Assembly: GCF_900230225.1 (NCBI RefSeq)
Contig: NZ_OCNH01000007.1
Span: 124,001-188,000, forward strand
DNA: 64,000 bases
DNA from: Spirosoma fluviale
GTDB lineage: Bacteria; Bacteroidota; Bacteroidia; Cytophagales; Spirosomataceae
Direction of reading: 5' to 3'
Below are positions 3,229 to 18,030 of the stretch, one piece after another. The translations under genes were made by a program, and so were the position numbers. Numbering within the stretch: the first letter of the stretch is position 1; the number at the start of each line of letters is the position of its first letter. The notes beneath the pieces are model-generated. The model ran no database searches. It was not told the origin of the DNA and saw nothing but the letters and a program-made list of their open reading frames with translations.

Positions 3229-4971
3229 TTATTCACGAATTGACAGGGATTGACAACTGAACCGATACGGCTGATTTGGCTGCGAGGGCGTCAGTACACC
3301 CACCTGATAACGCCCCGGTGCCAGTACGATGGTAAGAATTTCCGAGTGCGCCGATGTAACCGGTTTGTTCAGCCAGAAATGCCGGAACGTAAAGGGTGTT
3401 TCGGACGCGTACAGGATGGTGTGGCGGTCCGATTTGATAACAATAGCCGCCTGACCTAAATCCGATGGGTAGGCGTCGAACGCCGTTGCAGTTTGGTAAA
3501 TCACTCCCCCCCCATATAGAGTCATTGACAGACATGAATCATTCGTCACCGTACTGTTCATCGCCTTCAGCAACGGTTCGACGGGGGTAATGTAGCTTTC
3601 TGGATATTTATATATACCCCGGCTAACGGATTCCCGCATAACTGAGCGGGCCATGTTGGCAAAAGATGTTCCCCAAGTGGCCCCCAATCCAATATCGCTG
3701 TGTTTCTGGTTCATCGCGCTGGTTAGCAACATCTGCTTTCGAAAGGCCATTTTGGGCCAATAATACCCGTAGGTAAACAACCAAACAAACACACCACCAA
3801 TCAACCCGATACGTAAGCACCAGCGCTTTGCCTCCCAGGTGGCACATTCACTCAATAGATTGAGGTAAATAAGAGCCGTCAGGACTGCCGGGTAAATCAT
3901 GTAATTACTCACTACCATCACATCGTAGCCGTACCGAAGCCGGAGCAAAGCGATTATAGCTGCGTTTCCGTAGAAGAAAGCGTAGGCTCCGCTAAAGAAT
4001 AAGCGTCGTTTTTGTAAACCTTCATCTAGCTGCTCAACCCTGCGCGTCCACAAACTGCGGTTCATACGGTAGAGCAAGCCTACGACAATTGCCGCCAGTA
4101 CTACACCACCCACCGTTGGCGGTACGTACCGCCAACTGGTTTTGACAGCCGGAATAAAGTCAAACAGGCCGCCAGTAAATGTAAAAAACGCAGCTAACGC
4201 CTGTGCCGGATGCGCCAGGCTATAGGCTAAACTTTCGCCGGTACGGCTTGCGCTTTGAAAATTATAAAAATAGAGAACAACGGCCAGCACACTACCCGCC
4301 AGCCAACCGGCCAGCTTATACCATTTTTTATTGAGCGCCAGCACTATCCCCCCGGCTACCCACCCCATCAGGCCGTTGCTCATAGACAGGGTAGCAAATA
4401 CCTGCATGACGATCGCTCCGGCAAACTGATTGCGTCCGGACCTGGTTAGCAAGTACAACGACCAAAGCGTCAGGCAAATCACAACAGGGTGCTGAAGACC
4501 TGGTATGGACCATAAACTCGTCAGGTAATACTGGGGTTGCAGCATCAACAAGGGTACCGGAACAAACAACAGCCAGGATGCCTGCATCGACCGAAATACC
4601 CGGCTCAGCAGAGCCAGTACACTCAACATAAAGAGCAATGCAATTAGAATGAGCCACCTGAAATTGACTTCTCCCGTCAGGTAATACATACCCAGGGTAA
4701 TCAGTTTCGCGACTACAATCCGGTGCTCGTTGTTCGGGACAAAAATATTGTAGATTTTATCCGAAAAGTCCGTTGCATTCGTATACGCCAGGGTAAAGCC
4801 AAGGAAAGCATCAATATCATCGAACCAGGGAACGTTTACGGCATAAGTCCATACAAAGAGGACAAAACAAACGATTGGTAACGCGATCAGGAAGGGAGCA
4901 ACCTTCTGTAGGCGGGAAACAAAGGGTCTTTCGATGGGTGCGGTAAGCGTTGCAGCCATAAGAGAGCTCAT
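3229..4971 (-). CDS. Polytopic membrane protein of unknown function
   Basis: 580 residues with roughly ten hydrophobic segments from about residue 25 to 415, then a soluble C-terminal domain of about 150 residues rich in Thr, Ser and Tyr. The layout (cytoplasmic N-terminus, many helices, extracytoplasmic tail) resembles integral-membrane glycosyltransferases of the GT-C type or O-antigen-related proteins, but I see no diagnostic catalytic motif. I do not recognise the family and give no function. It is the first gene of a possible two-gene minus-strand unit with the esterase. The start ATG at 4971 has a second in-frame ATG four codons later. Confidence 0.6.
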   Translation of the reverse strand: MSSLMAATLTAPIERPFVSRLQKVAPFLIALPIVCFVLFVWTYAVNVPWFDDIDAFLGFTLAYTNATDFSDKIYNIFVPNNEHRIVVAKLITLGMYYLTGEVNFRWLILIALLFMLSVLALLSRVFRSMQASWLLFVPVPLLMLQPQYYLTSLWSIPGLQHPVVICLTLWSLYLLTRSGRNQFAGAIVMQVFATLSMSNGLMGWVAGGIVLALNKKWYKLAGWLAGSVLAVVLYFYNFQSASRTGESLAYSLAHPAQALAAFFTFTGGLFDFIPAVKTSWRYVPPTVGGVVLAAIVVGLLYRMNRSLWTRRVEQLDEGLQKRRLFFSGAYAFFYGNAAIIALLRLRYGYDVMVVSNYMIYPAVLTALIYLNLLSECATWEAKRWCLRIGLIGGVFVWLFTYGYYWPKMAFRKQMLLTSAMNQKHSDIGLGATWGTSFANMARSVMRESVSRGIYKYPESYITPVEPLLKAMNSTVTNDSCLSMTLYGGGVIYQTATAFDAYPSDLGQAAIVIKSDRHTILYASETPFTFRHFWLNKPVTSAHSEILTIVLAPGRYQVGVLTPSQPNQPYRFSCQSLSIRE

Positions 4972-5401
4972 TTTTTTCAGATTTAAAGAAGCGAAAAACG
5001 ACAGCCAGCAAACAGCAGATACCCTAACACGAAGCAGCCATGATCTCTCAATTCTCCCCTTTAAATGAGCCGTAAAAGGCTAAAATTCTATAGTGTAGAG
5101 AAATTCGTATTCAAGACATTGAGAGTAATAACTAACTAATAGTAAGCGCGTTAGAGAATCTATCCGAAAATAAGTTCTTTTTGCTGATCAGGCTACTTAA
5201 ATTAAAGAATAGCTACCCCATTAACTTTAATGAATACTTGAATGTTTTTTTTATCCCCGAAATCATAAATAAGTAGCTATTAACTTGCTTCTATATACGC
5301 TTTTAGAAATACTATCTCCCTCAAGGCGGTAAAGCCTGCTCTGGTAATTAATTAGCGATCAACTACCTTACTTCCGGCGTTCACTCCTGACCTGCTTACT
5401 G
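4972..5401. other. AT-rich intergenic region, no gene seen
   Basis: About 430 bases between the minus-strand membrane-protein gene and the decayed regulator. It is distinctly AT-rich compared with its surroundings. I see no open reading frame of note, no structured RNA that I recognise and no repeat. It probably holds the promoter of the membrane-protein gene. Confidence 0.4.
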
Positions 5402-5762
5402 ATGACTGTCCGACGGATTACGTCTTACATTGGCGCTTTCACTATGGCTATTCTGTGTGCCGGTCTTCGCTCAGACCGTACAATAACTTACCACAGCAAC
5501 TGGCCTTCCTAACTCAACGATTACCGGCCTGGTACAGGATCAGGCCAGCTTTATCTGGGTTAGTACGGCGGATGGGCTAGCGCGTTATGACGGCCAATGA
5601 GGTGATCCAACAGCATCACTTAAAACGAGCCGCTCAACTGCTGCTTGCGGGTCATAATGTATTGGAAACCGCCTACCTCGTTGGCTAGATAGTTCAGCGC
5701 ATTTTTCCCTGATTTTCAAAGATTTTTTTCAACAAACGCCTACAGAATATATTCAACGGTAG
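5402..5762 (+). pseudogene. Remnant of hybrid two-component system regulator (reg_prop start plus AraC end)
   Basis: Two recognisable pieces of one protein type lie head to tail with the middle missing. From about 5412 the frame reads a signal peptide ending VFAQTVQ, then an in-frame TAA (5484-5486), then LTTATGLPNSTITGLVQDQ and FIWVSTADGLARYD. This is the typical start of a hybrid sensor kinase with two-component-regulator propeller repeats. From 5599, in another frame, it reads LKRAAQLLLAGHNVLETAYL, then after a one-base frameshift DSSAHFSLIFKDFFQQTPTE and a stop at 5760-5762. This is the C-terminal AraC-type helix-turn-helix of the same protein class. Intact members have about 1300 residues, so some 3.5 kb has been lost between 5597 and 5599. 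The upstream ATG at 5402 is out of frame with the signal peptide, a further lesion. Confidence 0.8.
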
Positions 5763-5882
5763 GCATGACTCAATACCGATTGTATTTGGCTCAAAACCAA
5801 ACCTTACTTGGGAGTTAGTAACGGAATATTGCAGGGCAGTTCACGAGAGCTGTATACTTTTTCTATACCTGTATATATTTCT

Positions 5883-6367
5883 ATGAAACCGCTTTACACT
5901 TGTTTACAGTTTGTGAGCCTTTTTGTAGGCTTAACAACGTCAGCGCTTTCCCAAACAACCATCACTGGTTCGGTTCGGGACGCAACGGGTAAACCTTTAC
6001 CCTTCATTAGCATCGCACTATTAAACGCCCGTGATTCGAGTTTGATCACAGGCACCATTAGTAAAGAAACGGGAAGCTATACGTTCGAAAACATTAAACC
6101 AGGACAGTACAAGCTGATGGTCTCGGCAGTAGGCTATGCCCCAAACCGAACCAGGGCGTTTGATATAACATCATCCCCTACGGAAATCCCGGCCATCTCG
6201 CTCACCGAATTAGCCAAAACCCTCAATGCAGTAGCGGTCGTTACATCCAGCATGTTCGCTGGGCACTCGATACGAGGCTATTCCTCGTCAACATGAGCTA
6301 TTCGTTTGGCAACCAGAAGCTAAAAGCCGCCCGACAACGACGTACGGCTGCCGAAGAAGAAATGTAG
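5883..6367 (+). pseudogene. Remnant of outer-membrane beta-barrel receptor, internal deletion
   Basis: The ATG at 5883 starts a signal peptide (MKPLYTCLQF...ALSQ) and a carboxypeptidase-regulatory-like domain: TITGSVRDATGKPLPFISIA and GQYKLMVSAVGYAPNRTRAF. The frame ends at a TGA at 6294-6296. In a second frame, the reading DTRLFLVNMSYSFGNQKLKA followed by ARQRRTAAEEEM and a TAG at 6365-6367 is the C-terminal last strand and tail of the same receptor class. Intact receptors of this class have about 800 residues, so the plug and nearly the whole barrel are missing. The small N-terminal product could still be made and exported but would not form a barrel. It lies directly after a regulator remnant damaged in the same way. 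Confidence 0.8.
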
Positions 6368-6488
6368 CGGACCAATTAGCAAAGCCTTATTGAATTGCGA
6401 ATACTATCAACCCACTGATAAACAGGAAAACCTGCCTGTTACACGGAGTGCTTCATTACTTATTTTTTAACCTAAATCTCGTTTACCC

Positions 6489-7031
6489 ATGAAAACCATG
6501 TTCCGTTTACCCCTCGTAGTTTTAGCTGCCCTTCTTCTGTTTGTCAGTGCATCGGCGCAAGCCCAGCAAACACCCCGCTACAAAGACGTGGTGGTCGAAA
6601 ACCCCAATGCCGAAGCCGATATGAAAGTGGTTAGTGATTTTATTAATGCACTCGTATCCGGCGATTTAGCAAAAGCCCGATCGCTGGCATCGCCAACGTA
6701 TATAGGGCGAGGACCAGCCGCCACGGATTCTGCTAATGTGGACAAGGTGATTCAGAACTGGCAGGGAAACCACAAAACCCAGTCAGATCGTAAGGTTACG
6801 TTTGTCACCCAGACGTTCAAGGTGCTATCAGGTGCGCTTAAAGGCAACTGGGTGTCGTTGTGGGGAGATTACACGTTTACGCAGGCAGGAAAAACGATCA
6901 AGTTTCCGTTTCAGTACACAGCGGGCGTAGCCGATGGGAAGATCCTGGGCGACCGGATTTATTACGATGTGCTGTCCATTTACACGCAGCTAGGTTTCAA
7001 AGTTACCCCGCCCGAAACGTCCAAGAAGTAA
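6489..7031 (+). CDS. Small secreted protein, NTF2/SnoaL-like fold likely
   Basis: 180 residues with a clear signal peptide (hydrophobic core about residues 8-22, ending SAQAQ). The mature part reads MKVVSDFINALVSGDLAKAR followed by a beta-rich half with SLWGDYTFTQAGKTIKFPFQ. The pattern of one long helix pair followed by a curved sheet is typical of NTF2/SnoaL-like proteins. This superfamily includes enzymes and ligand-binding proteins, and no catalytic residues can be assigned here. Function is unknown. The gene stands alone between a receptor remnant and a lipocalin-like remnant and ends in a 12-bp-arm hairpin. Confidence 0.65.
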   Translation: MKTMFRLPLVVLAALLLFVSASAQAQQTPRYKDVVVENPNAEADMKVVSDFINALVSGDLAKARSLASPTYIGRGPAATDSANVDKVIQNWQGNHKTQSDRKVTFVTQTFKVLSGALKGNWVSLWGDYTFTQAGKTIKFPFQYTAGVADGKILGDRIYYDVLSIYTQLGFKVTPPETSKK

Positions 7032-7040
7032 CCCATTTCG

Positions 7041-7075
7041 CTCAGGTTGGCCCCGCCATCGCTGGCCAACCTGAG
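7041..7075. terminator. Hairpin after NTF2-like gene
   Basis: Perfect 12-bp arms (7041-7052 and 7064-7075) with an 11-base loop, starting nine bases after the stop codon. There is no T tract, so it may be a processing or stability element as much as a terminator. Confidence 0.6.
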
Positions 7076-7110
7076 TAGGAACCTTATCCTCCGCTTATCA
7101 TCAGCCTGTT

Positions 7111-7480
7111 GGGTCGATAAATGAAAAGTTTAACGGAACATACAAGCTCGATAAGACTGAAGCTTTTGATTCTCTTTCCGCAAAATGGGTTTCAACCAAA
7201 TGGAATGGGACGTACATAGATGGATTTATTCAATATGACGGAAAGGGGCATATGAGTGTTCATCTCTTTCGACGATTGAGCATCATAGAGTTTCGGCCAC
7301 AGAGCCCCAAAATTTCGGCACTGTCTTAACCCGTCACTTCGAATTCAGGAAAGATACGTTGCTGTTAACAACCATCGAATATATAGAGAGTAGGAAGGGA
7401 AGACTTCGATGGATCAAACTTTAGATTCGGAATACCTGGCTGGATGTGCTGCTCAACGGTCGGCTATATCCGCTTAATTA
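7111..7480 (+). pseudogene. Probable lipocalin-like protein remnant
   Basis: One frame reads NEKFNGTYKLDKTEAFDSLS then WNGTYIDGFIQYDGKGHMSV and breaks down after HLF. A second frame further on reads KDTLLLTTIEYIESRKGRLR followed by WIKL. The GTYKL start, the YDGKGHMSV block and the final LRWIKL strand resemble small lipocalin-like proteins. No single frame joins the parts and there is no good start codon. I read it as a decayed gene. Family assignment is tentative because only short blocks remain. The rest of the interval 7032-7523 holds only the hairpin described separately. Confidence 0.45.
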
Positions 7481-7523
7481 ACCTGCATTTCCTTCACTTA
7501 CCCCCTAAACCTTTTAGCAACTC

Positions 7524-8399
7524 ATGTCTACCATTCTCATTACCGGATGCAGTACCGGCATTGGCTTTGCCACCGCCGAAGTGTTGGCCCGTAGCGGTCA
7601 CACCGTTTACGCCACCATGCGTAATCCGCAAGGGTCGCCCGAACTGGAAAAGCTGGCCGAGCAGGACAATCTGCCCATTATTGTTTTGCCAATGGATGTC
7701 AATTCCGACGAATCAGTAAAAGCAACCATTACGCAGGTGTTGGCTCAGGCGGGCCAGATTGACGTGCTTGTGAACAATGCCGGTATCTTCCGGCTAGGTG
7801 CCGTTGAAGAATTACCGCTTTCGGCATTTCAGGAAGTAATGGAAACCAATTATTTCGGTACCATTCGCTGCATTCAGGCGGCATTGCCGTCTATGCGGGA
7901 AAAGGGGGCGGGCTGTATCGTCAATGTCACCTCAATCGCCAGTAAAATCTATGGGGGTTTCCAAGGGACGTACGCAGCCTCAAAAGCAGCTGCTGAAGCC
8001 TTCAGCGAAAGCCTGGCCGCTGAAGTTCAGCCCTTTGGCATCAGGGTGGTGCTGGTTGAGCCGGGGGTTATCGACACGCCAATTCTGGACAAAATGGAAC
8101 GTCCATCGCCTACTACCAAGTACCCAATCGTAAACCGGGCAAAGGCGTTTTATGCGGCTTCGCAGGCGAACCATGTATCACCCGGCTTAGTAGGGGAAAC
8201 AATCCGGGATATTTTAGCGGGCAACGACACGCAAATGCGCTACCCGGTAGGCCCGGATGCAGCTCTGTTACTTGGCTGGCGGGCGTCATTATCCGACTAT
8301 GAGTGGATTTCGTCGGGCAATGTAGACGAAGAGACCTGGATCGCCGGGATGGACCAGTTAGGTCTGAATGTACGACCATATCTGGGGGCTGGTAAATAG
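7524..8399 (+). CDS. Short-chain dehydrogenase/reductase (SDR)
   Basis: 291 residues of classical SDR layout. The cofactor motif TGCSTGIG is at 7-14, NNAG at 84-87, and the catalytic Ser137, Tyr150 and Lys154 (YAASK) are in normal spacing. SDR enzymes reduce carbonyls or oxidise alcohols with NAD(P)H; the substrate is not determined by these motifs. It is the first gene of a long same-strand run that includes a PQQ dehydrogenase and an amino-acid oxidation set. It is separated from the next start by about 90 bases, so co-transcription is possible but not shown. Role in aldehyde or alcohol conversion is inference from context only. Confidence 0.88.
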   Translation: MSTILITGCSTGIGFATAEVLARSGHTVYATMRNPQGSPELEKLAEQDNLPIIVLPMDVNSDESVKATITQVLAQAGQIDVLVNNAGIFRLGAVEELPLSAFQEVMETNYFGTIRCIQAALPSMREKGAGCIVNVTSIASKIYGGFQGTYAASKAAAEAFSESLAAEVQPFGIRVVLVEPGVIDTPILDKMERPSPTTKYPIVNRAKAFYAASQANHVSPGLVGETIRDILAGNDTQMRYPVGPDAALLLGWRASLSDYEWISSGNVDEETWIAGMDQLGLNVRPYLGAGK

Positions 8400-8487
8400 G
8401 CGGCTTCCGGTTACGTATAGCGCCTACGTCAGGACTAACCAGATCTTCGTATTAGTAGTATGTAAAATTCCTAAACCTCTTCACTAC

Positions 8488-10347
8488 ATGACCACGACCT
8501 CCGTTTTTTTATCTGTCATTGCCAGTTTCCTCACTATCACCAGCTACGGTCAGGAAAATTCAGTTTCTATCGTTGTTGACGCATCATCCAAAGCCGTCAA
8601 AGTGACTGAGGCTACGAAGATGGCGGGAAAAGCCGTTTTTGCCACTTCCTGTCAATCGTGCCATACCAATATTGCTGAGTCCAAAGCGCCTAGTTTGGCT
8701 ATGCTGGGAGCCATGAGCCCACGCGCCATTTATACGGCGTTAAAGACCGGAAAGATGCAGACTCAATCTCAATCTCTTTCTGATGAACAACGCCGGGAGG
8801 TGGCCCAGTGGATTACGAACCGGCCATTTGCCGAAACAAAGCTTCCCAAGGCGGCTTTTGTACCCTTCTCGTTACCCAAAAATGTGCCTGTCTCGTCGGG
8901 CTGGGGCGGTAATCTGGCGGGGACCGGATTTACACAGAATACCCGTATTACGCCCGAGAATGTAACATCGCTCAAGGTAAAATGGACGTTTGCTTTCCCC
9001 GACGGCACCCAGATACGCAGCAAGCCGGCCGTTGTTGGCGACTGGCTTCTTGTGGGTAGTCAATTTGGCGATGTGTACGCTATTCAAAAGCAAACGGGGA
9101 AAATCGGCTGGCATTTTGTGGGCGATGCCCCCATCCGCGGAGCCATTTTTATCGGAAAAAGCGGGGATAAGTTACGGGCCTATTTCGCCGATTTCACCAC
9201 CAATGTGTATGCCGTTGATGTAGCGTCGGGTAAGTTAATCTGGAAGAAACGAGCCGGGCAGCACCCGCAGTCGGGCAACACCGGCTCAGTAGCCGTTTAT
9301 CAGAACACGATTATCGTGCCGCTCACCTCCAATGAAGTGACCACATCCAAAGATCCGAATTACACCTGCTGCACCTCATCGGGCGAAGTAATTGCCCTAA
9401 ATGCCACAACCGGTGATTTGATGTGGCGGCATCGGGTAATTCCGCAAGAGGCATTGGTAAGCGGGAAGAAGAAAAACGGGCAAAACTTTTATGGCCCCTC
9501 AGGAGCGCCCGTCTGGAGTAGCCCAACCATTGATACAAAACGTGGATTGGTCTATATCGGTACGGGTGAAAATTACACAGACCCGCCGTCAACAACCAGC
9601 GACGCTATTCAGGCCCTGGATATCAAAACGGGAAAGCTGGTCTGGAGTTATCAGGCAACCTCACACGATACATGGAATCTGGCTTGCCCCGGCGATCCTA
9701 ACTGCCCCGAAAAAGCTGGCCCTGATCTGGATTTTGGTATGGCCCCTTTGTTGGTAACGACCAAACAAGGCCGGGATATGCTGGTCGTTGGTCAAAAAGC
9801 GGGCGTTATTCACGCACTCGACCCCGCAACGGGCAGCATACTATGGCAAACCCGAATTGGGAAGGGCGGCATGCTGGGTGGTATTCACTGGGGAATGGCC
9901 TCTGACGGCAACTATGTGTATGCGGCTAATGCAGATAATAGTCTTGTCTTAGACCCGCGCGACCCGAACCGAAAAGCCTCGCCGGGCCTTTACGCGCTCG
10001 ATGTTAATACGGGCAAGGTAGTCTGGAACCAGCCAACGCCCAACGTTGAGACAGGCAAGCCCTATATACAGGCCAATTCGGCGGCTCCCCTGTTGATTCC
10101 CGGGCTGGTCTTTGCGGGTTCACTCGACGGGCACATTCGCAGCTATGAAGCCAGCACGGGCAAAATTGTCTGGGATTTTGATACGGTACAGGAATTCAAA
10201 ACAAGTAACGGCATAGCGGGCAAGGGCGGGTCGATCGACGGCCCATCGCCGGTCGTATCAGGAAGTATGTTATTTGTTAACTCAGGCTATGGCATGTTCG
10301 GAGAGACGCCCGGTAACGTACTGATTGCCTTTGACCTGGATAACTAA
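8488..10347 (+). CDS. Cytochrome c / PQQ-dependent alcohol dehydrogenase, polyvinyl-alcohol-dehydrogenase-like
   Basis: 619 residues from the ATG at 8488; the frame stays open to 8368 but that extension lacks a signal peptide. After a signal peptide (about 1-22) comes a small cytochrome c domain with the haem site CQSCH at 55-59. Then follows a beta-propeller with repeated PQQ-enzyme blades (for example DGTQIRSKPAVVGDWLLVGS, KTGKLVW, DPATGSILW, DVNTGKVVW). Haem first and propeller second is the order seen in polyvinyl alcohol dehydrogenase (cytochrome), and the block GYGMFGETPGNVLIAFDLD ends the propeller. Such enzymes oxidise alcohols in the periplasm and pass electrons to haem. The true substrate is unknown. 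PQQ must be made elsewhere or taken up, since no pqq gene is in view. Confidence 0.82.
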   Translation: MTTTSVFLSVIASFLTITSYGQENSVSIVVDASSKAVKVTEATKMAGKAVFATSCQSCHTNIAESKAPSLAMLGAMSPRAIYTALKTGKMQTQSQSLSDEQRREVAQWITNRPFAETKLPKAAFVPFSLPKNVPVSSGWGGNLAGTGFTQNTRITPENVTSLKVKWTFAFPDGTQIRSKPAVVGDWLLVGSQFGDVYAIQKQTGKIGWHFVGDAPIRGAIFIGKSGDKLRAYFADFTTNVYAVDVASGKLIWKKRAGQHPQSGNTGSVAVYQNTIIVPLTSNEVTTSKDPNYTCCTSSGEVIALNATTGDLMWRHRVIPQEALVSGKKKNGQNFYGPSGAPVWSSPTIDTKRGLVYIGTGENYTDPPSTTSDAIQALDIKTGKLVWSYQATSHDTWNLACPGDPNCPEKAGPDLDFGMAPLLVTTKQGRDMLVVGQKAGVIHALDPATGSILWQTRIGKGGMLGGIHWGMASDGNYVYAANADNSLVLDPRDPNRKASPGLYALDVNTGKVVWNQPTPNVETGKPYIQANSAAPLLIPGLVFAGSLDGHIRSYEASTGKIVWDFDTVQEFKTSNGIAGKGGSIDGPSPVVSGSMLFVNSGYGMFGETPGNVLIAFDLDN

Positions 10348-10668
10348 CTATCCTGTTTTCTAGCCAGCACCTCAATAAATCGCACCTTTTCCATGAATCC
10401 TCAACTCTCGTTGATCACCGCCCGCACCGTTGCGGTGAAATCCCTTACCCTGTGAAATAAGCCATCCTAAAAACCGGCGCATCCGTCGACGACGGTAGCC
10501 CGTAGCTCGGACAACTGATCACTATAATGGCTCAAAATCATTAATGAATGGCTCAAATCTGAAAGTGTCCCGGTAAAAAACCGGCAAACTTTGACTCACT
10601 CAGATGGGTAAATGAATTCCTTCATGAACAGGCATTCATAACCAGGCTACGGGCTAAATGCGAATACT
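10348..10668. other. Intergenic region with possible decayed coding sequence
   Basis: About 320 bases between the PQQ dehydrogenase and RidA genes. A short frame from the ATG at 10394 stops after 20 codons, and the base composition looks like former coding sequence. No family can be recognised. No terminator hairpin was found, so read-through into the RidA gene cannot be excluded. The promoter of the RidA operon may lie here, but no clear TAnnTTTG box was placed. Confidence 0.35.
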
Positions 10669-11145
10669 ATGTCGTACGAAAAAAAATTTCTTGATCTGGG
10701 GCATGAGATCCCTCCGGTGGTTCCATCCGTTCCTGCCGGTTACAACTTTGTACTCCATCGTCAGATTGGCGAAATGCTGTACGTGTCAGGGTACGGCCCA
10801 TTCTGGGGAGCCGATGTCCCCGTTGAATACACCGGAAAAATTGGTCAGACGTTAACACCCATTCAGGGATATAACGCGGCCCGGCTAACGGGCATCAACT
10901 TGCTGCTTATTGTGCGGCAGGCCATTCAGTCACTTGATAACGTAGTTCAGATCGTAGCGGTTGAGGGGTTGGTCAATTGTACCGACGACTTTACCGATCA
11001 ACCCGCTGTAATTAACGGCTGCTCTGATCTGCTCGTCTCCATTTTTGGTGACCACGGCCGCCACACCCGCATTGCGTCAGGGTCAAATGCCCTGGCGTTG
11101 GGGATCTGCGTCGAAATTACGCTGACAGTCCAGGTGCGTTTGTAA
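10669..11145 (+). CDS. RidA/YjgF family enamine/imine deaminase
   Basis: 158 residues, slightly longer than the usual 125-130 because of an N-terminal extension (FLDLGHEIPPVVPSVPAGYN). The family core is visible: MLYVSGYGPF, the helix GYNAARLTGINLLLIVRQAI and a C-terminal strand region with VEITLTVQV. RidA proteins speed up hydrolysis of reactive enamines and imines, the first products of amino-acid oxidation or dehydration, to 2-keto acids and ammonia. The conserved family Arg near the C-terminus is not obvious in canonical form; the GRHTRIASGSNAL block may supply it. The gene lies 30 bases upstream of a 2-keto-acid decarboxylase and close to a flavin amine oxidase, which fits that chemistry. 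Confidence 0.85.
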   Translation: MSYEKKFLDLGHEIPPVVPSVPAGYNFVLHRQIGEMLYVSGYGPFWGADVPVEYTGKIGQTLTPIQGYNAARLTGINLLLIVRQAIQSLDNVVQIVAVEGLVNCTDDFTDQPAVINGCSDLLVSIFGDHGRHTRIASGSNALALGICVEITLTVQVRL

Positions 11146-11175
11146 TTTTCTTCACGCTACTTAACCTTCTTAACT

Positions 11176-12927
11176 ATGTCCACGACAACAACTTTCTGCG
11201 TAGGCACCTATCTCACTACTCGCCTGGAGGAACTGGGAGTCGGCCATTTATTCTCCGTACCAGGCGACTATACCAGCGATCTGCTGGAGATTGTCGATAC
11301 CAAAAGTACAATTCAGCGGATTGGCAATTGCAACGAACTCAACGCCGGTTACGCGGCCGACGGCTATGCAAGAGCCAATGGTCTGGGAGCGGTGGCGGTT
11401 ACAACGGGAGTTGGCTCATTTAGCGTCCTCAACGCCATTGGTGGTGCCTACGTTGAGATGATACCCGTGGTAACCATTATTGGCACGCTGAGCAACGTGA
11501 AGCGACTAAATGCCATTAATGCAGGCGAGTTGTTTCACCATAACACGGGACCGGGCGACGAAAATCGGCTGGTTTTTCAAGGCGTAACCGTTGCTTACGA
11601 GCAAATCAGCGACCCTTTACAGGCTCCGAATCAGATCGACCACGCGCTAACAATGTGTATTAGTCAGAAGCGTCCTGTGGTTATCGAAATCCTGGAAGAC
11701 TGTTACAAACTACCCTGTCCGGCCCCACAGGGTACATTATCGCCTACGCCCCTGTTTACTCCGCTGGAGCAATTAAAAGTACTGGCCCCAACCAATACCT
11801 ACGCAAAAGGCATCGTAACCGCCGTGCATGATGCCGCTCAGGAAATCTGTACCCTGCTGACAGACAAGAAGGTAAAGCCTGTTTTCTGGATTGGCCATGA
11901 ACTAGGACGCTATGACCTTCAGGAGTTGTTTAACCAGTTACTGGCCAAAACCGGGGTGCCATTTGTGAGCAGCTTGCTGGGGAAAGCGGTTTTGGCTGAA
12001 GATACGCCAGGTTATCTTGGAATCTACAACGGTATATTTTCCCAGACTCAGTTAGCCGATTACGACTGCATCATTGCGCTGGGTGTTTGGAATACCGACC
12101 TGAATGTATTTGGCGAAAAACTAAAAGCCCCCCTTGGTACCGGCAATCCGGCAGCGGTTCTGGCCACTCGTAATGTTGTGAAAATAGGTACAACGCTATA
12201 CTCCCAGGTATCGCTCGAAAACCTGCTGACCGAAGTCCTGGCGCAACTTAAGCCACAGTCGTCAACATCAGATGTTTATTCGACAGCTGTGCTCCCTGCC
12301 TGCGAACAGGAAGCCGACCAACCCATCACCTACGATACTTTTTTTGCTGGCCTGAACGGCTATCTGACTCCTCAAAATCTGGTGGTAGCCGATATTGGGC
12401 TGTCTACCTTCGGCGGGTCTTCGTTTCTGACGATAAACCGGCAAAACGGATTCCTGGCGCAGGCGATCTGGGCTTCTATCGGATGGAGCGTGCCAGCCGG
12501 GTTGGGAGCGTCGTTCACGCCGGGCGTACGTCCGATTGTTATTGTAGGCGACGGTGCCTTTAAACTTACCTGTCAGGAAATTTCCACGATGGTGGCCTGT
12601 GGCTGTAATACGGTCGTATTTGTGCTCAACAACGGCGTATATGCTGTTGAACAGATTCTACTGAACGCCGAACCCTTTCAAAAAGACTCCACGGCCAAAT
12701 TTGAAGCGGCTAATGTGCTGCAAGCGTGGGATTATATCAGTCTGCTGAAAGGATTTTCTAACAACGATCCGCAGGCGATGAGTGCTGCGGTGAATACCAT
12801 TGGCGAGCTGAACGAGGTACTGGCGCAAATCAGTATGCATTCCGGCGCAGTATGGCTGGTGAGCATCAACCTTAATGAGCGCGATTTCCCGGCCAGTTGG
12901 CAACCTTTCGTTACGCCGAAAGACTGA
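11176..12927 (+). CDS. Thiamine-diphosphate 2-keto-acid decarboxylase (pyruvate/indolepyruvate decarboxylase family)
   Basis: 583 residues with three domains in the order of pyruvate decarboxylase. The cofactor-activating Glu is E54 in NCNELNAGYAADGYA. The catalytic His pair is H121-H122 (LFHHNTG), which is diagnostic for the decarboxylase group as opposed to acetolactate synthases. The thiamine-diphosphate motif runs from GDG at 458-460 to NN at 485-486, followed by GVYAVEQ with the second active-site acid at E492. The enzyme converts a 2-keto acid to the aldehyde and CO2. The preferred side chain (pyruvate, branched, phenyl- or indole-pyruvate) cannot be read by eye. It lies between RidA and a flavin amine oxidase, suggesting amino-acid-derived keto acids as substrates. 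Confidence 0.9.
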   Translation: MSTTTTFCVGTYLTTRLEELGVGHLFSVPGDYTSDLLEIVDTKSTIQRIGNCNELNAGYAADGYARANGLGAVAVTTGVGSFSVLNAIGGAYVEMIPVVTIIGTLSNVKRLNAINAGELFHHNTGPGDENRLVFQGVTVAYEQISDPLQAPNQIDHALTMCISQKRPVVIEILEDCYKLPCPAPQGTLSPTPLFTPLEQLKVLAPTNTYAKGIVTAVHDAAQEICTLLTDKKVKPVFWIGHELGRYDLQELFNQLLAKTGVPFVSSLLGKAVLAEDTPGYLGIYNGIFSQTQLADYDCIIALGVWNTDLNVFGEKLKAPLGTGNPAAVLATRNVVKIGTTLYSQVSLENLLTEVLAQLKPQSSTSDVYSTAVLPACEQEADQPITYDTFFAGLNGYLTPQNLVVADIGLSTFGGSSFLTINRQNGFLAQAIWASIGWSVPAGLGASFTPGVRPIVIVGDGAFKLTCQEISTMVACGCNTVVFVLNNGVYAVEQILLNAEPFQKDSTAKFEAANVLQAWDYISLLKGFSNNDPQAMSAAVNTIGELNEVLAQISMHSGAVWLVSINLNERDFPASWQPFVTPKD

Positions 12928-13004
12928 CCATACAGCCAAATCCAGCCTCCTCTTTTTTAGCAAATACTACCTCGTTTTATTTTCTTTTAAACTTCCTGTA
13001 AGCA

Positions 13005-14651
13005 ATGTCAACTCAATCTGTCCACCACTCCTGCGACGTACTGATCGTCGGGGCGGGTATGTCGGGGCTATTCGCTGCCTGGCGCCTACTCAACCATAAG
13101 CCCGACCTAAATGTCGTAATTGTTGATAAGCTCAACCGCACGGGTGGTCGTTTGCAAACCACAACAGTCTCTATTCGGGGTACTGACGGCAACGATTATG
13201 ATGTAGATAACGAGGAAGGCGGTATGCGCTTCGTGCCCGAAGGCACAGGCATGCCCAATCTCTGGAGATTGTTTCATGAGCTGAACCTGCAACCGATCCC
13301 CTTCCCGATGGGCGATGAAAATAACCGCTATTTTATTCGCGGGCGCTCATTCACCAAAAGTAAAACCCCCATCATCTGGCAGTTCATGTACAACCTGGCA
13401 CCTCAGGAGCAGAACAAACAGCCGGGCGACATTTTCGGGGAGGTGCTGGCGGCTATACTGGCGGAGAATAAAGATCTATACACCGTTGCTGCTGGTCAAA
13501 CCTTTCCGTCTACACCCGACCAGTGGATTCAGTTTCGTAATACGTTTACCTACAAAGGCGTCGCTTTGCATAGTTGGGGGTTGTGGACATTGCTACAGGA
13601 ATATGGCTTGACGCAGGAGTGTATCAATTGGCTCGATCAGGCTATCGGGTTTATGGGGCCGGTCGATGCCTTTATCAACGCCGGTGAAGGCTTACAGATC
13701 ATCCTTGATTTTCCGAGTGCCGCTTCGTTTTTTACACTGCCCGGCGGCTATCAAACCCTGCCCGACTGCTTGGAGCATCAGATAATACAATTGGGTGGAG
13801 ACATTATCCTGAACAAGACCATCGACTCTATTACTGACAAGGGCGACTATAAATTGGCTACCGGAGAGGGAATTAACTACCGGGCAAAACAGGTTATTCT
13901 GGCTCTTCCGCGCAAGGCCATCGAAAAGCTGGCCGATGCGTCGCCCGCATTACATCACGACCACAAGTTCATGGAGGCTGTGGGCAGTGTGCATAATATG
14001 GAGCTGACCAAGATTGGTCTGTATTTCGATCAACGCTGGTGGCATGATCCGGCATACGGAATCAACATCAGCAGCGGTCCGTCATTTTCTGATCTACCCG
14101 CCGGTTCCGTCTATGCTTTCGCGCACGACCCGGCCAATCCGGAAGCCGACCAAAAGTATAACGGCCCGGCGGCCCTGACCATCTATACCGATTTTATCCG
14201 GGGCAATTTCTGGAAAGAGCTGCAAAATATGGGCGAGCCCTACCATACAGTCGCTTTCCCCGACAACCCCGATAATACACAAGCGGCTACGACTCCACTC
14301 GTCAAAGAAGCGATGCGGCTCATAAAAACCATTTTTGGTCTCAATCCTGACACCGCCGTGCCCGAGCCGGTACTGAGTACGTACCGGATTTGGGGGCAGG
14401 GTGAGTTTGGGTATGGCTACCACCAGTATAAGCTAAATGTAGACGACCGGCAGGTGTACAAGTCAATCTGGAATCCTGCCAGCGGCATCTACGTGTGCAA
14501 CGAAGCCTGGTCGCCAGAGCAGGGCTGGGTCGAAGGGTCTTTGCTGGCAACGGAGCATGTCTTGCAGCAAGGCTTTAAACTGGATCCGTTTTCGGCTCCA
14601 CATCAGGATTCACCAGTCGTTTCTACTTCCAGAACCATTAACCAGTACTAG
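13005..14651 (+). CDS. FAD-dependent amine oxidase family, L-amino-acid-oxidase-like
   Basis: 548 residues. The Rossmann FAD motif VIVGAGMSGL (about 14-22) is followed by the second family block NRTGGRLQTT, then an EEGGMRF block, and near the C-terminus NEAWSPEQGWVEGSLLATEH, which closes the flavin site. No signal peptide is seen, so the enzyme is likely cytoplasmic. Members oxidise amines or amino acids to imines with release of peroxide or by passing electrons to a quinone. The L-amino-acid oxidase reading is inference from neighbours RidA and a keto-acid decarboxylase. A polyamine or aromatic monoamine oxidase is the alternative. Its stop codon lies two bases before the FIST gene start, which implies a shared transcript. 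Confidence 0.83.
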   Translation: MSTQSVHHSCDVLIVGAGMSGLFAAWRLLNHKPDLNVVIVDKLNRTGGRLQTTTVSIRGTDGNDYDVDNEEGGMRFVPEGTGMPNLWRLFHELNLQPIPFPMGDENNRYFIRGRSFTKSKTPIIWQFMYNLAPQEQNKQPGDIFGEVLAAILAENKDLYTVAAGQTFPSTPDQWIQFRNTFTYKGVALHSWGLWTLLQEYGLTQECINWLDQAIGFMGPVDAFINAGEGLQIILDFPSAASFFTLPGGYQTLPDCLEHQIIQLGGDIILNKTIDSITDKGDYKLATGEGINYRAKQVILALPRKAIEKLADASPALHHDHKFMEAVGSVHNMELTKIGLYFDQRWWHDPAYGINISSGPSFSDLPAGSVYAFAHDPANPEADQKYNGPAALTIYTDFIRGNFWKELQNMGEPYHTVAFPDNPDNTQAATTPLVKEAMRLIKTIFGLNPDTAVPEPVLSTYRIWGQGEFGYGYHQYKLNVDDRQVYKSIWNPASGIYVCNEAWSPEQGWVEGSLLATEHVLQQGFKLDPFSAPHQDSPVVSTSRTINQY

Positions 14652-14653
14652 CG

Positions 14654-15790
14654 ATGAAATCCAAATCAATCAAAGGGAATTCGGTAACTGAAATAGCTAA
14701 CCAGTTAAGCGCTTCATTGGCCGATGGGTTTAGTCCCACTATTGCGATCGTGTTCATGTCAATCAAACAGGACATTGCGGCCATTTGCCAGCTCCTTGAT
14801 GATCAGTCTATTACTATTTTCGGCGCAACGACAGCGGGTGAGTTTACAGATGGTGAAATCGGGGAAGAGTCTGTCGCGATATTACTGATGGACTTGAAAC
14901 GGGACTACTTCCGGATCGAATTTATCGAAACCGGAACCAATACTACCCGGCAGGTTGCAGGGCAGATTGGTGAAAACGGGGTTCTCACCTTTAATAAGCC
15001 AGCTTTTATTGTGGCTTCAGGAGGTATCAGCACCGATGGGGAAATGATTGTGCAGGGTATTGAAGACGCCGTTGGTGCTGAGAGTCCAATATTTGGCGGT
15101 ATGGCCGGGGATGATTTCACCATGACAGGCACCTTTGTGTTCACGAACAACAAAATCAGTAACGATGGCCTGATCGCCCTGATTATCGACAATGAACGGG
15201 TAAACGTGCAGGGACTGGCCACCAGTGGCTGGAAACCCGTAGGCACGGTTCGAACCATAACCCGCAGCGAAGGCAATGTTGTTTATACCATCGACGATGA
15301 ACCCGCGCTGGATGTTGTTATTCGGTACATGGGCGTCGACAAAAACCTGGACGCCTGGAAAGATGTCATTGTAAATGTAGGTTCGGAATTCCCAATGCAA
15401 TTACAACGAGACAGGTCTGCCCCCGTGCTGAGAGCCCCCCTTTATGCCAATCAGAACGATCGCTCCTTAGTATGTGCGGGAAGTGTGCCACAGGGAACAA
15501 AAATTCGATTTTCGCTCCCACCCGATTTTGACATCATCGACAAAGTAGTGGCCGAGTGCAACCAGATAAAAGAACTTGAGCCAGAAGCCGATGCATTAAT
15601 TATGTTCTCCTGCAAGGCGCGCCACCTGTCGCTGGGGCCGATGGTCAGCGACGAAATTGATCAGGTAATGAATGTCTGGAATAGCCCCATGGTTGGTTTT
15701 TTCAGTTATGGCGAAATTGGAAAAACGGTGCAGGGGAAGCACGAATTTCATAATAATACCTGCTCACTGGTCGTCCTGAAAGAGAACTAA
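14654..15790 (+). CDS. FIST N/C domain sensor protein
   Basis: 378 residues with a FIST_N domain in the first half (FGATTAGEFTDGEIGEESVA, then PIFGGMAGDDFTMTGTFVFT) and a FIST_C domain in the second (ADALIMFSCKARHLSLGPMV, ending NNTCSLVVLKEN). No membrane segment or signal peptide is seen, so it is cytoplasmic. FIST domains are described sensory modules, proposed from gene neighbourhoods to bind small ligands such as amino acids. Here the gene follows the amine oxidase by two bases and precedes a soluble histidine kinase by two bases. It is a separate polypeptide and would have to signal to the kinase by contact. The ligand is not known. Confidence 0.88.
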   Translation: MKSKSIKGNSVTEIANQLSASLADGFSPTIAIVFMSIKQDIAAICQLLDDQSITIFGATTAGEFTDGEIGEESVAILLMDLKRDYFRIEFIETGTNTTRQVAGQIGENGVLTFNKPAFIVASGGISTDGEMIVQGIEDAVGAESPIFGGMAGDDFTMTGTFVFTNNKISNDGLIALIIDNERVNVQGLATSGWKPVGTVRTITRSEGNVVYTIDDEPALDVVIRYMGVDKNLDAWKDVIVNVGSEFPMQLQRDRSAPVLRAPLYANQNDRSLVCAGSVPQGTKIRFSLPPDFDIIDKVVAECNQIKELEPEADALIMFSCKARHLSLGPMVSDEIDQVMNVWNSPMVGFFSYGEIGKTVQGKHEFHNNTCSLVVLKEN

Positions 15791-15792
15791 AC

Positions 15793-16851
15793 GTGAATCC
15801 ATCTTTACAAACACTACTAAACCTGATTCAGCAAAACAGTGCTTTGTCTAAAGCAGATCAGGAGGCTATGAACAAAGTTGTGAAGGAGGTAAGTAAATCA
15901 CTGAGCATAGCCGAATTTAAACTAAGTCGGACAGAAAAAGAGAAACGTACCGTCTCGGTTTTGCTTGAGGAAACCATTGATGAGCTTCAACGAAAATCCT
16001 TAGTGTTGGAACAAGCCAATATCAATCTGATTCAGGCCATCAATACGGTTAAGGCTACTCAGGAGCAACTAATTCATAAGGAGAAACTTGCATCGCTTGG
16101 TGAACTCATGGCGGGCATTGCCCATGAGATTCAAAACCCGCTCAATTTCGTCAATAACTTCTCGGAAGTAAGCGCCGAGCTGGTCACCGAGATCGAAGAA
16201 GAACTGCAAAAGCCAGATCGAGATGTCGAACTAGAAACCGAGTTGCTGACCGACTTAAGAAAAAACCTGTACAAAATCAACCACCACGGTGGCCGGGCTT
16301 CGGCCATTGTACGGGGCATGCTTGACCACTCCCGCACCTCTACCAGCGAGCGACGTCTCATCAATCTTAACGCCCTGACCGATGAGTACCTGCGGCTGGC
16401 TTACCACGGCTTAAGAGCGAAGGACAAAAACGTCAACTGTGAGCTAGTTACATCCTTTGACACGCATCTGGGGGAAATCGAGCTGATGCCTCAGGAGATA
16501 GGCCGGGTGCTGCTAAACCTGTTTAACAACGCCTTTTACGCCGTTCAGGAAAAGCAAAAAACTGCCCCGGTTGATTACCAGCCTACCGTTACGGTCAGTA
16601 CCCAGCTGTTGAGCCAAGCCGTCGAAATTCGGGTGAAAGACAACGGTATGGGTATTCCCGCCACGATCAAAGACAAGATCTTTCAGCCTTTCTTCACTAC
16701 CAAACCCACCGGTGAGGGCACGGGTTTGGGCCTGAGTCTGAGCTACGATATTATAACAAAAGGGCATGGAGGAACTATGGAGGTCCGAACAGAATCGGGT
16801 CTCTTTACCGAATTTATTATAACGTTACCAACCTCTCCACTCCCGGCATAA
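15793..16851 (+). CDS. Soluble sensor histidine kinase, partner of FIST protein
   Basis: 352 residues starting from GTG. Residues 30-100 form a likely coiled coil without membrane helices, then a HisKA box KLASLGELMAGIAHEIQNPL with the phospho-acceptor H111. The ATPase domain shows an N box (EIGRVLLNLFNNAFYAVQEK), a G1 box (DNGMGIP) and a G2 box (GEGTGLGLSLSYDI). The protein has no receiver or sensory domain of its own, so the input most likely comes from the FIST protein encoded two bases upstream. No response regulator gene is adjacent; the phosphate acceptor must be elsewhere. A hairpin with 10-bp arms follows at 16871-16903. Confidence 0.88.
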   Translation: MNPSLQTLLNLIQQNSALSKADQEAMNKVVKEVSKSLSIAEFKLSRTEKEKRTVSVLLEETIDELQRKSLVLEQANINLIQAINTVKATQEQLIHKEKLASLGELMAGIAHEIQNPLNFVNNFSEVSAELVTEIEEELQKPDRDVELETELLTDLRKNLYKINHHGGRASAIVRGMLDHSRTSTSERRLINLNALTDEYLRLAYHGLRAKDKNVNCELVTSFDTHLGEIELMPQEIGRVLLNLFNNAFYAVQEKQKTAPVDYQPTVTVSTQLLSQAVEIRVKDNGMGIPATIKDKIFQPFFTTKPTGEGTGLGLSLSYDIITKGHGGTMEVRTESGLFTEFIITLPTSPLPA

Positions 16852-16870
16852 GCTGGAAATGGGCTTTGGA

Positions 16871-16903
16871 CGACGCAGATGTGGCAAGGCACAATCTGCG
16901 TCG
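16871..16903. terminator. Hairpin after histidine kinase gene
   Basis: Perfect 10-bp arms (16871-16880 and 16894-16903) with a 13-base loop, 19 bases after the kinase stop codon and followed by a short AT-rich stretch. It probably ends the RidA-kinase operon. Confidence 0.55.
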
Positions 16904-17081
16904 AATTTACCATGACTTCGACGCTGGCTTTCGTGTTGGGAACCCCTTTATCCCTACGCGAACATCCACGTTTGGGGCGGCCCTCCCCGACCCGTTACCG
17001 CCCCGACCCGTTACCGCCATCTGTGTTTCCAGCGACAGCCGAACGCGTTTAAACCAGACGGCTGGCAAGAGTAAAATCCGA

Positions 17082-17315
17082 TCATATCGAATCCAGTTGA
17101 TGACTTTCTGTTTGAGGTACGTATTCAAGTAAATCGCCCGGTTGGCAGTCCAGCGCCCGGCACAGGGCTTCGAGCGTATTGAATCGAATGGCTTTGGCTT
17201 TACCTGTTTTTAAAATAGACAGGTTAGCCAATGTCAGGTCGACTTTTTCGGCCAGCTCGGTCAATGACATTTTTCGACGGGCCATCATCACGTCTACATT
17301 TACAATTATTGGCAT
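17082..17315 (-). CDS. Small XRE/YozG-like HTH transcriptional regulator
   Basis: 77 residues. The helix-turn-helix MSLTELAEKVDLTLANLSIL (about 16-35) is followed by KTGKAKAIRFNTLEALCRAL and the typical ending CQPGDLLEYVP. This is the small YozG-type repressor that is commonly found directly behind a DUF2975 membrane protein. It starts five bases after the DUF2975 stop codon, so the two are one operon. The tandem palindrome at 17988-18030 is its best candidate operator. The signal that it answers to is not known. Confidence 0.88.
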   Translation of the reverse strand: MPIIVNVDVMMARRKMSLTELAEKVDLTLANLSILKTGKAKAIRFNTLEALCRALDCQPGDLLEYVPQTESHQLDSI

Positions 17316-17320
17316 GGCTT

Positions 17321-17959
17321 TCAGATCGTTAGTTCCTGCTCCTCTTTAAGATATAACCCGGAACGAAACACTTCGGCCAGTCCGAATAATAACAATCCAA
17401 TAAAAAAGCTGGCCGACAGTAAACCCCATAAACCATATCCTCCCTGCTCGAAAGCAACGTAGTGTTTTTTTAGCAACGCGATAACATCATCTTTAATCCA
17501 TAGCCAGCGTAATGGGTCAATTACCGTATCAAAAAGAAAAAGTCCTCCTAAAAGTCGGATACGAAATACATTGGCTGAACTGAACACATTCACGGTACCC
17601 ACACTGTCCATAATCTGCTTTACCTGATGCAACATCAGGGTAATCAACATGGCACCCAAAAAATACCAGCCGGTGATTTTCCAGTACAAACCGGCATTTT
17701 CTTCAATAAACGGCCGGTTAAAATAAATAAAACTCAGCGATGTCTGGAAGGAACTCTTAGCCGTAACCACAAAGCCCTTGTCCCCATAAACAACTTCTTC
17801 GCCCAAGCGTACAGGTACTGTAGTAAATAACTTGTACTGCTCAATCGGCCAAAAATAGAGGTATACCATGACGAACAACCCGGATACAATCAGACACAGG
17901 CATGCATAATAGATAAATGCCACAACAACCTTCAACGGTTTGATATAAGGTGAATACAT
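17321..17959 (-). CDS. DUF2975 family membrane protein
   Basis: 212 residues from the ATG at 17959. The frame is open to 18016, but that extension would be coded by the AT-rich palindromic operator, so I prefer the inner start. There are four hydrophobic segments, and the protein ends in the family signature LLLFGLAEVFRSGLYLKEEQ. DUF2975 proteins are of unknown function and are nearly always encoded with a small XRE regulator, as here. A role in sensing the membrane state or regulating the partner repressor is only a guess. Confidence 0.85.
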   Translation of the reverse strand: MYSPYIKPLKVVVAFIYYACLCLIVSGLFVMVYLYFWPIEQYKLFTTVPVRLGEEVVYGDKGFVVTAKSSFQTSLSFIYFNRPFIEENAGLYWKITGWYFLGAMLITLMLHQVKQIMDSVGTVNVFSSANVFRIRLLGGLFLFDTVIDPLRWLWIKDDVIALLKKHYVAFEQGGYGLWGLLSASFFIGLLLFGLAEVFRSGLYLKEEQELTI

Positions 17960-17987
17960 AGAGGTAAAGGATCTAAATACACTCAAA

Positions 17988-18030
17988 TTTATCAATAAAT
18001 ATTTATTGATAAACAATAAATATTTATTGA
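17988..18030. promoter_or_regulatory. Tandem palindromic operator of the DUF2975-HTH operon
   Basis: A perfect 26-bp palindrome (17988-18013, centre 18000/18001) is followed by a second copy of its 16-bp core (18014-18029, centre 18021/18022). The centres are exactly 21 bp apart, about two helical turns, so two repressor dimers would sit on the same face of the helix. It lies just upstream of the DUF2975 start at 17959. I infer that the XRE protein of the operon binds it. The remaining bases up to 18299 hold no gene that I can support. Confidence 0.65.

Follow-up and report, generated by a model that had tools for sequence, protein, structure and literature searches.

In Pseudoalteromonas luteoviolacea the gene for the L-amino acid oxidase Pl-LAAO is clustered with genes for an indolepyruvate decarboxylase, a response regulator and a kinase (PMC6316408). 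Pl-LAAO oxidises many L-amino acids, glutamine and leucine best, and oxidases of Algoriphagus and Spirosoma fluviale are named as similar to it, S. fluviale being the only genome with two Pl-laao-like genes in the search made there; the likeness to the oxidase discussed below is that paper's grouping (PMC6316408). In Gluconacetobacter diazotrophicus a lao-cccA-ridA cluster is described for indole-3-acetic acid (PMC5053998). FIST proteins have been described in other settings: NosP adjoins a kinase without its own sensor in the NosP-NosK/NahK systems (PMC12570481, PMC8846402), a NosP-type protein and a kinase (PP_2663/PedS1) lie within the aldehyde-making, alcohol- and aldehyde-oxidising ped cluster of Pseudomonas (PMC12997753), and human FBXO22 has the FIST fold (PMC13316043, PMC11208438, PMC13370883). 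Here we describe a five-gene unit of S. fluviale in which an oxidase-decarboxylase pair directly adjoins a FIST protein and a kinase. It lies in a stretch of 64,000 nucleotides (the window) of a 7.8 Mb genome (G000), at C17:124001-188000, and is laid out as follows.

10348-10668, + strand: intergenic region upstream of the unit, presumed promoter site (by position only)
10669-11145, + strand: Rid-family protein of the PF14588 branch, probable imine deaminase (Pfam, alignment of catalytic positions)
11176-12927, + strand: thiamine diphosphate (ThDP) 2-keto-acid decarboxylase of the pyruvate/indolepyruvate/keto-acid decarboxylase (PDC/IPDC/KDC) type, with the full active-site set (Pfam, alignments)
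13005-14651, + strand: flavin adenine dinucleotide (FAD) L-amino acid oxidase with a GGMR motif (Arg75) (Pfam, structure-profile matches, alignment)
14654-15790, + strand: FIST sensor (FIST_N and FIST_C) with Cys320, Arg323, Glu334 and Glu354 (Pfam, model, alignments)
15793-16851, + strand: soluble histidine kinase with a GTG start; N-terminal adaptor (1 to about 75), then HisKA and HATPase_c (Pfam, adaptor matches)

The five genes form a real, conserved and rare unit. An earlier reading made from the letters of the window (the sequence-only reading) had noted five closely spaced genes on one strand, and the open reading frame coordinates agree, with gaps of 30, 77, 2 and 2 bases in the order Rid, decarboxylase, oxidase, FIST, kinase. 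Its FAD amine oxidase, its decarboxylase with an E54/HH/GDG-NN set, its two-domain FIST protein and its kinase without a sensor of its own are all confirmed by the evidence given below; its RidA fold stands as a member of the Rid family and does not stand as a canonical RidA. It knew of no described system with this exact set; the oxidase-decarboxylase and oxidase-rid pairings are in print, so part of the enzyme logic was known before, and the coupling to FIST is new as far as searched. No prior link of a bacterial FIST to aldehydes was found in the literature searched, whose coverage lacks most subscription journals. The Pl-LAAO cluster, as far as it is described in the available text, is without FIST or Rid and has Spondin_N-like proteins instead, and that text gives no account of what surrounds the Cytophagales oxidases (PMC6316408); the lao-cccA-ridA cluster has a cytochrome c and no decarboxylase, and the available text does not mention FIST or a kinase (PMC5053998). 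A cyclic di-GMP (c-di-GMP) regulator is often adjacent to NosP (PMC12570481, PMC8846402), and the Pseudomonas ped cluster uses pyrroloquinoline quinone (PQQ) alcohol dehydrogenases (PMC12997753).

On a contig of a Persicitalea metagenome-assembled genome all five genes recur in identical order, with gaps of 42, 52, 3 and 2 bases and other flanks; recurrence of the order among different neighbours indicates that the arrangement is more than chance. The oxidase subfamily was defined by a profile score of at least 780 bits, or by 64% identity in the case of Persicitalea (G013), and it is found in nine genomes, namely that of the window, Persicitalea, six Algoriphagus (L057-L062) and one further genus (G509). 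In all nine a decarboxylase gene lies upstream of the oxidase gene, and a FIST gene followed by that of an adaptor-bearing kinase lies downstream. The co-occurrence in Bacteroidota that the sequence-only reading had proposed to look for is therefore seen for the core four genes in these nine genomes; the related FIST locus of S. endophyticum, treated below, lacks the two enzymes. The oxidase-FIST gaps are 2-36 bases in the eight clusters measured, across four genera and at 50-77% protein identity, and the flanks differ among the five clusters whose flanks were read. By pairwise identity all three proteins, decarboxylase, oxidase and FIST, place the window next to Persicitalea, and G509 next to Algoriphagus.

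The subfamily is sparsely distributed. The oxidase search matched 15 of 200 family genomes at E 1e-20, the subfamily being confined there to the window genome and Persicitalea; 8 of 390 order genomes at E 1e-60, six of them with at least 886 bits; 7 of 72 genomes of the genus Algoriphagus, six with at least 780 bits (the G520 match being split in two); and, among 395 phylum genomes, 2, one being the window genome. The decarboxylase subfamily, at E 1e-120, was found in 5 of 380 order genomes, all five of them linked ones; G509 is absent from these matches and was probably not drawn in that sample. Relatives of the FIST protein were collected by a profile scan of 84,980 species genomes, in which 223 stretches matched, with 163 relatives; the best 80 were kept and make up 76 loci. 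In seven of these 76 (Persicitalea and the six Algoriphagus, the closest relatives) oxidase and decarboxylase adjoin FIST. When the neighbours in the 76 loci were clustered, with families judged by eye, the two enzymes ranked below the FIST, kinase-like, small-protein (12 loci) and CheY-like (8 loci) clusters. In one Algoriphagus copy (L057; G520, the A. marincola HL-49 metagenome-assembled genome, 7321-8987) the oxidase gene is split over two frames, which reflects either decay or an error in the sequence; the remaining five Algoriphagus genes have intact frames.

The oxidase matches PF01593 with 101.6 bits (cut-off 19.8), and in a profile search its best solved relatives are 7og2 (E 7.4e-114) and 7c4k, an 'Ancestral L-amino acid oxidase' (E 1.5e-111). 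Putrescine and monoamine oxidases align with it in the FAD region only. The sequence features of L-amino acid oxidases are all present: the FAD motif, the GGMR arginine, which binds the substrate carboxylate in these enzymes, and the QGWVEG C-terminus. An oxidase acting on polyamines only, which the sequence-only reading had held would undo its proposal, is rejected on the strength of the best structures, the restriction of the polyamine and monoamine oxidase matches to the FAD region and the GGMR arginine; the comparison supports grouping the window oxidase with the L-amino acid oxidases. Its substrate would probably be a larger, leucine-like or aromatic amino acid. A VioA label was rejected, the score lying under the equivalog cut-off. 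No signal peptide was seen by eye (no predictor was run).

In the decarboxylase all three domains of this enzyme class exceed their Pfam cut-offs (PF02776, PF02775 and PF00205 at 79.5, 72.4 and 45.1 bits; cut-offs 26.8, 21.9 and 30.4). The marks E54, H121-H122, G458-D459-G460, N485-N486 and E492, which correspond to the glutamate, His-His pair and GDG...NN motif with following glutamate that have recognised roles in ThDP decarboxylases, are shared by the window protein and the six aligned relatives, which supports a complete enzyme of the PDC/IPDC type. Its best models are indolepyruvate decarboxylases, and that equivalog label was rejected at 271.9 bits against a cut-off of 946 on TIGR03393. 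At the position of a tryptophan in the aligned pyruvate decarboxylase, a residue with a recognised role in those enzymes, the window protein has Thr411 and the Algoriphagus proteins have serine; a pyruvate-only decarboxylase is thus unlikely, and the replacement suggests a larger keto acid as substrate.

The pairing of these two enzymes recurs outside the unit. The window genome holds two Pl-laao-like oxidases, and the second is also paired: at L054 (G000:C8:909000-928900, 3891-12591) the gene of an oxidase (35% identical) precedes that of a decarboxylase (33%) by 22 bases, in swapped order relative to the window unit. The swapped order is found again in Pseudoalteromonas NC201, where an oxidase (26%) is directly followed by a decarboxylase (31%). 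The FAD and ThDP enzymes of Streptomyces L174 were not counted as a recurrence because the alignment of the FAD enzyme to the oxidase spans just 68 residues. Near the L054 pair are a peroxidase of the FMP type (605 bits against a cut-off of 300), a PF12902 ferritin-like protein and a 649-residue protein without a Pfam or NCBIfam match; a resemblance to VioB/RebD-type dimer synthases is conceivable here. A genome of the Algoriphagus group (L151, G539:C227, metagenome-assembled) has another oxidase type (443 bits) in tandem with a 711-residue amino-oxidase relative and a 420-residue protein that by eye resembles the L054 peroxidase; no FIST is present on that 7.6 kb contig.

The Rid protein matches PF14588 with 63.6 bits (cut-off 35), falls below the cut-off of PF01042 (21.2 of 27.3 bits) and has no NCBIfam match at E 0.01. 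When aligned to 3d01, 2otm and PA0814, its Arg134 and Glu149 occupy the catalytic positions, and the catalytic arginine and glutamate are retained in RidA and Rid1-3 (PMC4433059). RidA, Rid2 and Rid1-3 proteins hydrolyse the imines produced by L-amino acid oxidase (PMC4433059, PMC5619798). The gene was seen in two of the nine clusters, those of the window and of Persicitalea, whose Rid is 68% identical, so that a role for Rid as a core component is unsupported. Near the six Algoriphagus loci and L146 a tblastn search gave a single 17-residue chance match; the rest of those genomes was not searched.

Both FIST domains are well above their cut-offs (PF08495, 126 bits against 23.2; PF10442, 75.8 against 28.5). 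A three-row profile of the FIST protein gave no sequence match among solved structures, the single hit up to E 1 being a phage protein (E 0.92). An AlphaFold2 model built from 117 rows has a mean predicted local distance difference test (pLDDT) score of 91.2, and with this model Foldseek found FBXO22 alone below E 0.001 (8ua3, E 2.5e-9; 8ua6, E 7.4e-9; template modelling (TM) score 0.52 by query); chorismate mutase 1xho was a weak, non-significant match (E 0.31). The 117-row profile meets FBXO22 weakly in HMMER (E 0.14) and in register, FSC falling on FAC326 and GE on GE362, and hhalign on 63 printed FBXO22 residues gives the same register (probability 89.5, E 2e-6). Both methods align Cys320 with FBXO22 Cys326 and Glu354 with Glu362, which supports the presence in FIST_C of a reactive cysteine and neighbouring glutamate of the FBXO22 type. 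Among 204 FIST open reading frames of the 76 loci, Cys320 is present in 203 and Arg323, Glu334 and Glu354 in all; the 27 common Spirosomaceae FISTs, among them the second copy of the window genome, all have the four residues. In seven further FISTs (that second copy and six from plasmids) the cysteine is present in all and each of the other three in six. The linked FISTs share 22 clade-specific positions.

In FBXO22, aldehydes made from alkylamines by amine oxidase form a reversible hemithioacetal with Cys326; engagement is abolished in C326A and ubiquitination was ablated in E362A, a ketone analogue serving as the negative control (PMC13316043, PMC11208438, PMC13370883). Three repeats make up the FIST domain of FBXO22, and its fold is like those of chorismatases and cyanuric acid hydrolases, possibly derived from the trimeric YjgF (RidA) superfamily (PMC11185555), so that FIST and Rid of the unit may be related in fold. 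Gene linkage of FIST with an aldehyde-forming pair and the hemithioacetal chemistry of the FBXO22 FIST fold are two independent lines that converge. A 2007 study reportedly proposed that FIST domains bind amino acids.

The kinase consists of HisKA (PF00512, 28.2 bits, cut-off 26.9) and HATPase_c (PF02518, 73.8 bits, cut-off 26.4), with no Pfam sensor domain over its cut-off and a FIST gene adjacent, as is typical of a two-component kinase with an external sensor. The pairing of FIST with a kinase that has no sensor of its own is widespread. Kinases beside this FIST family have in common an N-terminal adaptor of about 75 residues, with matches at E 1e-5 in 64 of the 76 loci (some of them short contigs). 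The kinases themselves differ between clusters, those read from Algoriphagus and G509 having about 185 more residues ahead of HisKA, and only the adaptor and the catalytic core are shared by all; the adaptor may be the part that docks FIST.

An L-amino-acid-type oxidase, a complete decarboxylase and the catalytic arginine of Rid make an oxidative Ehrlich-type sequence the natural reading. Such a route had already been proposed by the sequence-only reading, which is supported in part: the conserved unit, the kinship of the oxidase, the complete decarboxylase and the Rid arginine favour it, and Rid was found in just two of the nine clusters. The unit would work in the cytoplasm and carry its own sensor. 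The oxidase would convert an L-amino acid to the imino acid and hydrogen peroxide (H2O2), Rid, where present, would speed hydrolysis of the imino acid, and the resulting 2-keto acid would be decarboxylated to the aldehyde by the ThDP enzyme. FIST would read the pathway, most likely by forming a reversible hemithioacetal of the aldehyde on Cys320 with assistance from Glu354, as FBXO22 does with Cys326 and Glu362. Aldehyde-bound FIST would then alter the activity of the kinase through its N-terminal adaptor, and the kinase would pass its phosphate to a response regulator encoded elsewhere. The comparisons support the enzyme families, the FIST-kinase pairing and the residue match, the enzymes and the gene order being well supported; the cytoplasmic location, co-transcription, the aldehyde as ligand, docking through the adaptor and the direction of the signal are probable elaborations that we infer. 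The whole, an oxidative Ehrlich-type unit whose aldehyde is captured by FIST and so steers a sensor-less kinase, is put forward tentatively, with a chance that we judge to fall somewhat short of even.

A number of observations weigh against aldehyde capture by FIST. Neither oxidase nor decarboxylase turned up by tblastn (E 1e-5) at the other 69 of the 76 FIST loci, some of which are short contigs. S. endophyticum has a FIST-kinase pair with a CheY-like regulator and neither enzyme nearby; in the FIST tree (55 of 119 rows) the linked FISTs and that of S. endophyticum are one group (SH-like approximate likelihood ratio test (SH-aLRT) 99), within which the latter groups with the window and Persicitalea (SH-aLRT 94, midpoint root), so that the enzymes were either lost or never present there and FIST, kinase and CheY-like regulator were kept. 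In other lineages the enzymes too occur apart: among 12 plasmid oxidase records those of Flammeovirga and Scytonema have no annotated decarboxylase within 7 kb, and of the 108 plasmid records of decarboxylases a Rhizobium and a Sinorhizobium one were examined and lie in inositol-type clusters without such an oxidase. The oxidase-decarboxylase pairing is recurrent but not universal. Within the unit there is no aldehyde-consuming enzyme and no response regulator; the window genome has 10 matches (E 1e-12) to the S. endophyticum regulator, the best 61% identical at C8:306661. The sequence match to FBXO22 is weak in HMMER and covers 63 residues in hhalign. The Cys/Glu pair is family-wide, which makes it a general property rather than a tie to this pathway, and it is not invariant, as the Microvirga FIST has glutamine for Glu354 and threonine for Arg323; that of Sulfurovum has lysine for Glu334. 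FBXO22 itself differs in being a ubiquitin ligase receptor whose aldehydes are synthetic ligands (PMC13316043, PMC11208438, PMC13370883), it has no obvious ligand pocket without ligand according to the FBXO22-BACH1 paper (PMC11185555), and a natural aldehyde ligand of any FIST was not found in the available portions of the literature examined. Further, NosP binds its kinase and changes kinase activity with heme and nitric oxide (NO) reported as the signal (PMC12570481, PMC8846402).

This last point leads to a different account, in which the window FIST senses NO through heme on behalf of the kinase, as NosP does, and the enzymes merely share a promoter or a place. The adjacent sensor-less kinase is as in NosP-NosK (PMC12570481), and the NosP model NF041558 matches FIST residues 11-356; the score is 69.5 bits, far under the cut-off of 450, and the NosP equivalog label was rejected on that ground (five related or distant FISTs and the second copy of the window genome score 36-62 bits). 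The unit has no c-di-GMP regulator, the account leaves unexplained why all nine clusters are linked to one oxidase-decarboxylase pair, and we consider it improbable. Somewhat more credible, and still unlikely, is non-covalent binding by FIST of the keto, imino or amino acid in an inter-repeat pocket derived from the RidA/YjgF active site, with sensing before the aldehyde step. The three repeats of the FBXO22 FIST and the possible descent of enzymes of similar fold from trimeric YjgF (PMC11185555), the weak match to chorismate mutase, the Rid protein in the same unit and an arginine, Arg323, that could hold a carboxylate all point this way, whereas the lack of an obvious pocket in FBXO22 and the family-wide occurrence of Arg323 point away from it.

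It could also be that the unit is an H2O2 generator, Rid and the decarboxylase clearing by-products and Cys320 of FIST reporting oxidation, a reactive cysteine being open to such oxidation. Pl-LAAO, listed as similar to the Spirosoma and Algoriphagus oxidases, acts on other bacteria via H2O2 (PMC6316408), and peroxidase genes lie beside oxidase-decarboxylase pairs elsewhere (the FMP-type of L054; a Dyp-type beside the FAD and ThDP enzymes of Streptomyces L174). On the other hand, no peroxidase or catalase is among the unit's own genes (the relatives' neighbours were not all annotated) and no secretion signal was seen, although Pl-LAAO lacks a classical one too; we give this a small chance, like that of the NO/heme sensor. 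Very improbable in our view is an accidental neighbourhood, in which a FIST-kinase pair came to lie next to a catabolic one and the whole spread as one block. It would fit the patchy distribution (6 of 390 order genomes, 6 of 72 in the genus Algoriphagus) and the FIST-kinase pair without enzymes in S. endophyticum; against it are the short oxidase-FIST gaps kept in eight clusters of four genera in spite of sequence divergence, and the differing flanks.

FIST genes occur in other surroundings as well. At the Bacteroidota loci L064-L131 they often lie several side by side (209 FIST-cluster open reading frames in the 76 loci), with many kinases around. A search for plasmid relatives with the second FIST copy of the window genome gave 17 records, six of which were examined; a kinase or ATP-binding protein adjoins FIST in four of the six, a Sulfurovum plasmid has a longer FIST protein between regulators, and on an Aliiroseovarius plasmid (L156, 3554-7837) FIST is flanked by genes for a pyridoxal phosphate (PLP)-dependent decarboxylase and for an adenylate/guanylate cyclase; here too a FIST adjoins amino-acid chemistry, and its output is likely to differ. 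These plasmid neighbours neither help nor hurt the proposal of aldehyde capture.

Around the unit in the window, a PQQ-type beta-propeller dehydrogenase gene with a cytochrome c domain lies upstream on the same strand (8368-10347); its called ATG overlaps the preceding short-chain dehydrogenase/reductase (SDR) gene, and the true start is probably later. It was not taken as a member of the unit, as different genes occupy that place in Persicitalea, L058, L059 and L146, where the flanks were read. Downstream, on the opposite strand (17321-18016, -), is a DUF2975 membrane-protein gene. Scanning 10300-17400 for sigma-70-type sites yielded 7, where shuffled sequence gave 7.7; none of the 7 lies in 10348-10668, and the promoter and terminator scans of the unit were uninformative.

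FIST domains, which range from bacteria to humans, have no agreed ligand. The unit offers a natural candidate ligand for FIST, with the presumed genes for its synthesis adjoining, and the residue-level prediction, Cys320 with Glu354, also fits the FBXO22 chemistry that is used in drug design. In its broadest form, which we regard as doubtful, FIST_C would be an ancient covalent carbonyl-sensing domain, reversible aldehyde capture by its near-invariant cysteine and glutamate steering kinases in bacteria and acting in FBXO22 in animals, and the Cytophagales unit, with maker and reader of the aldehyde side by side, would be a self-sensing amino-acid-to-aldehyde circuit. If true, FIST proteins would gain a role in aldehyde sensing; otherwise NO/heme would stay the general reading.

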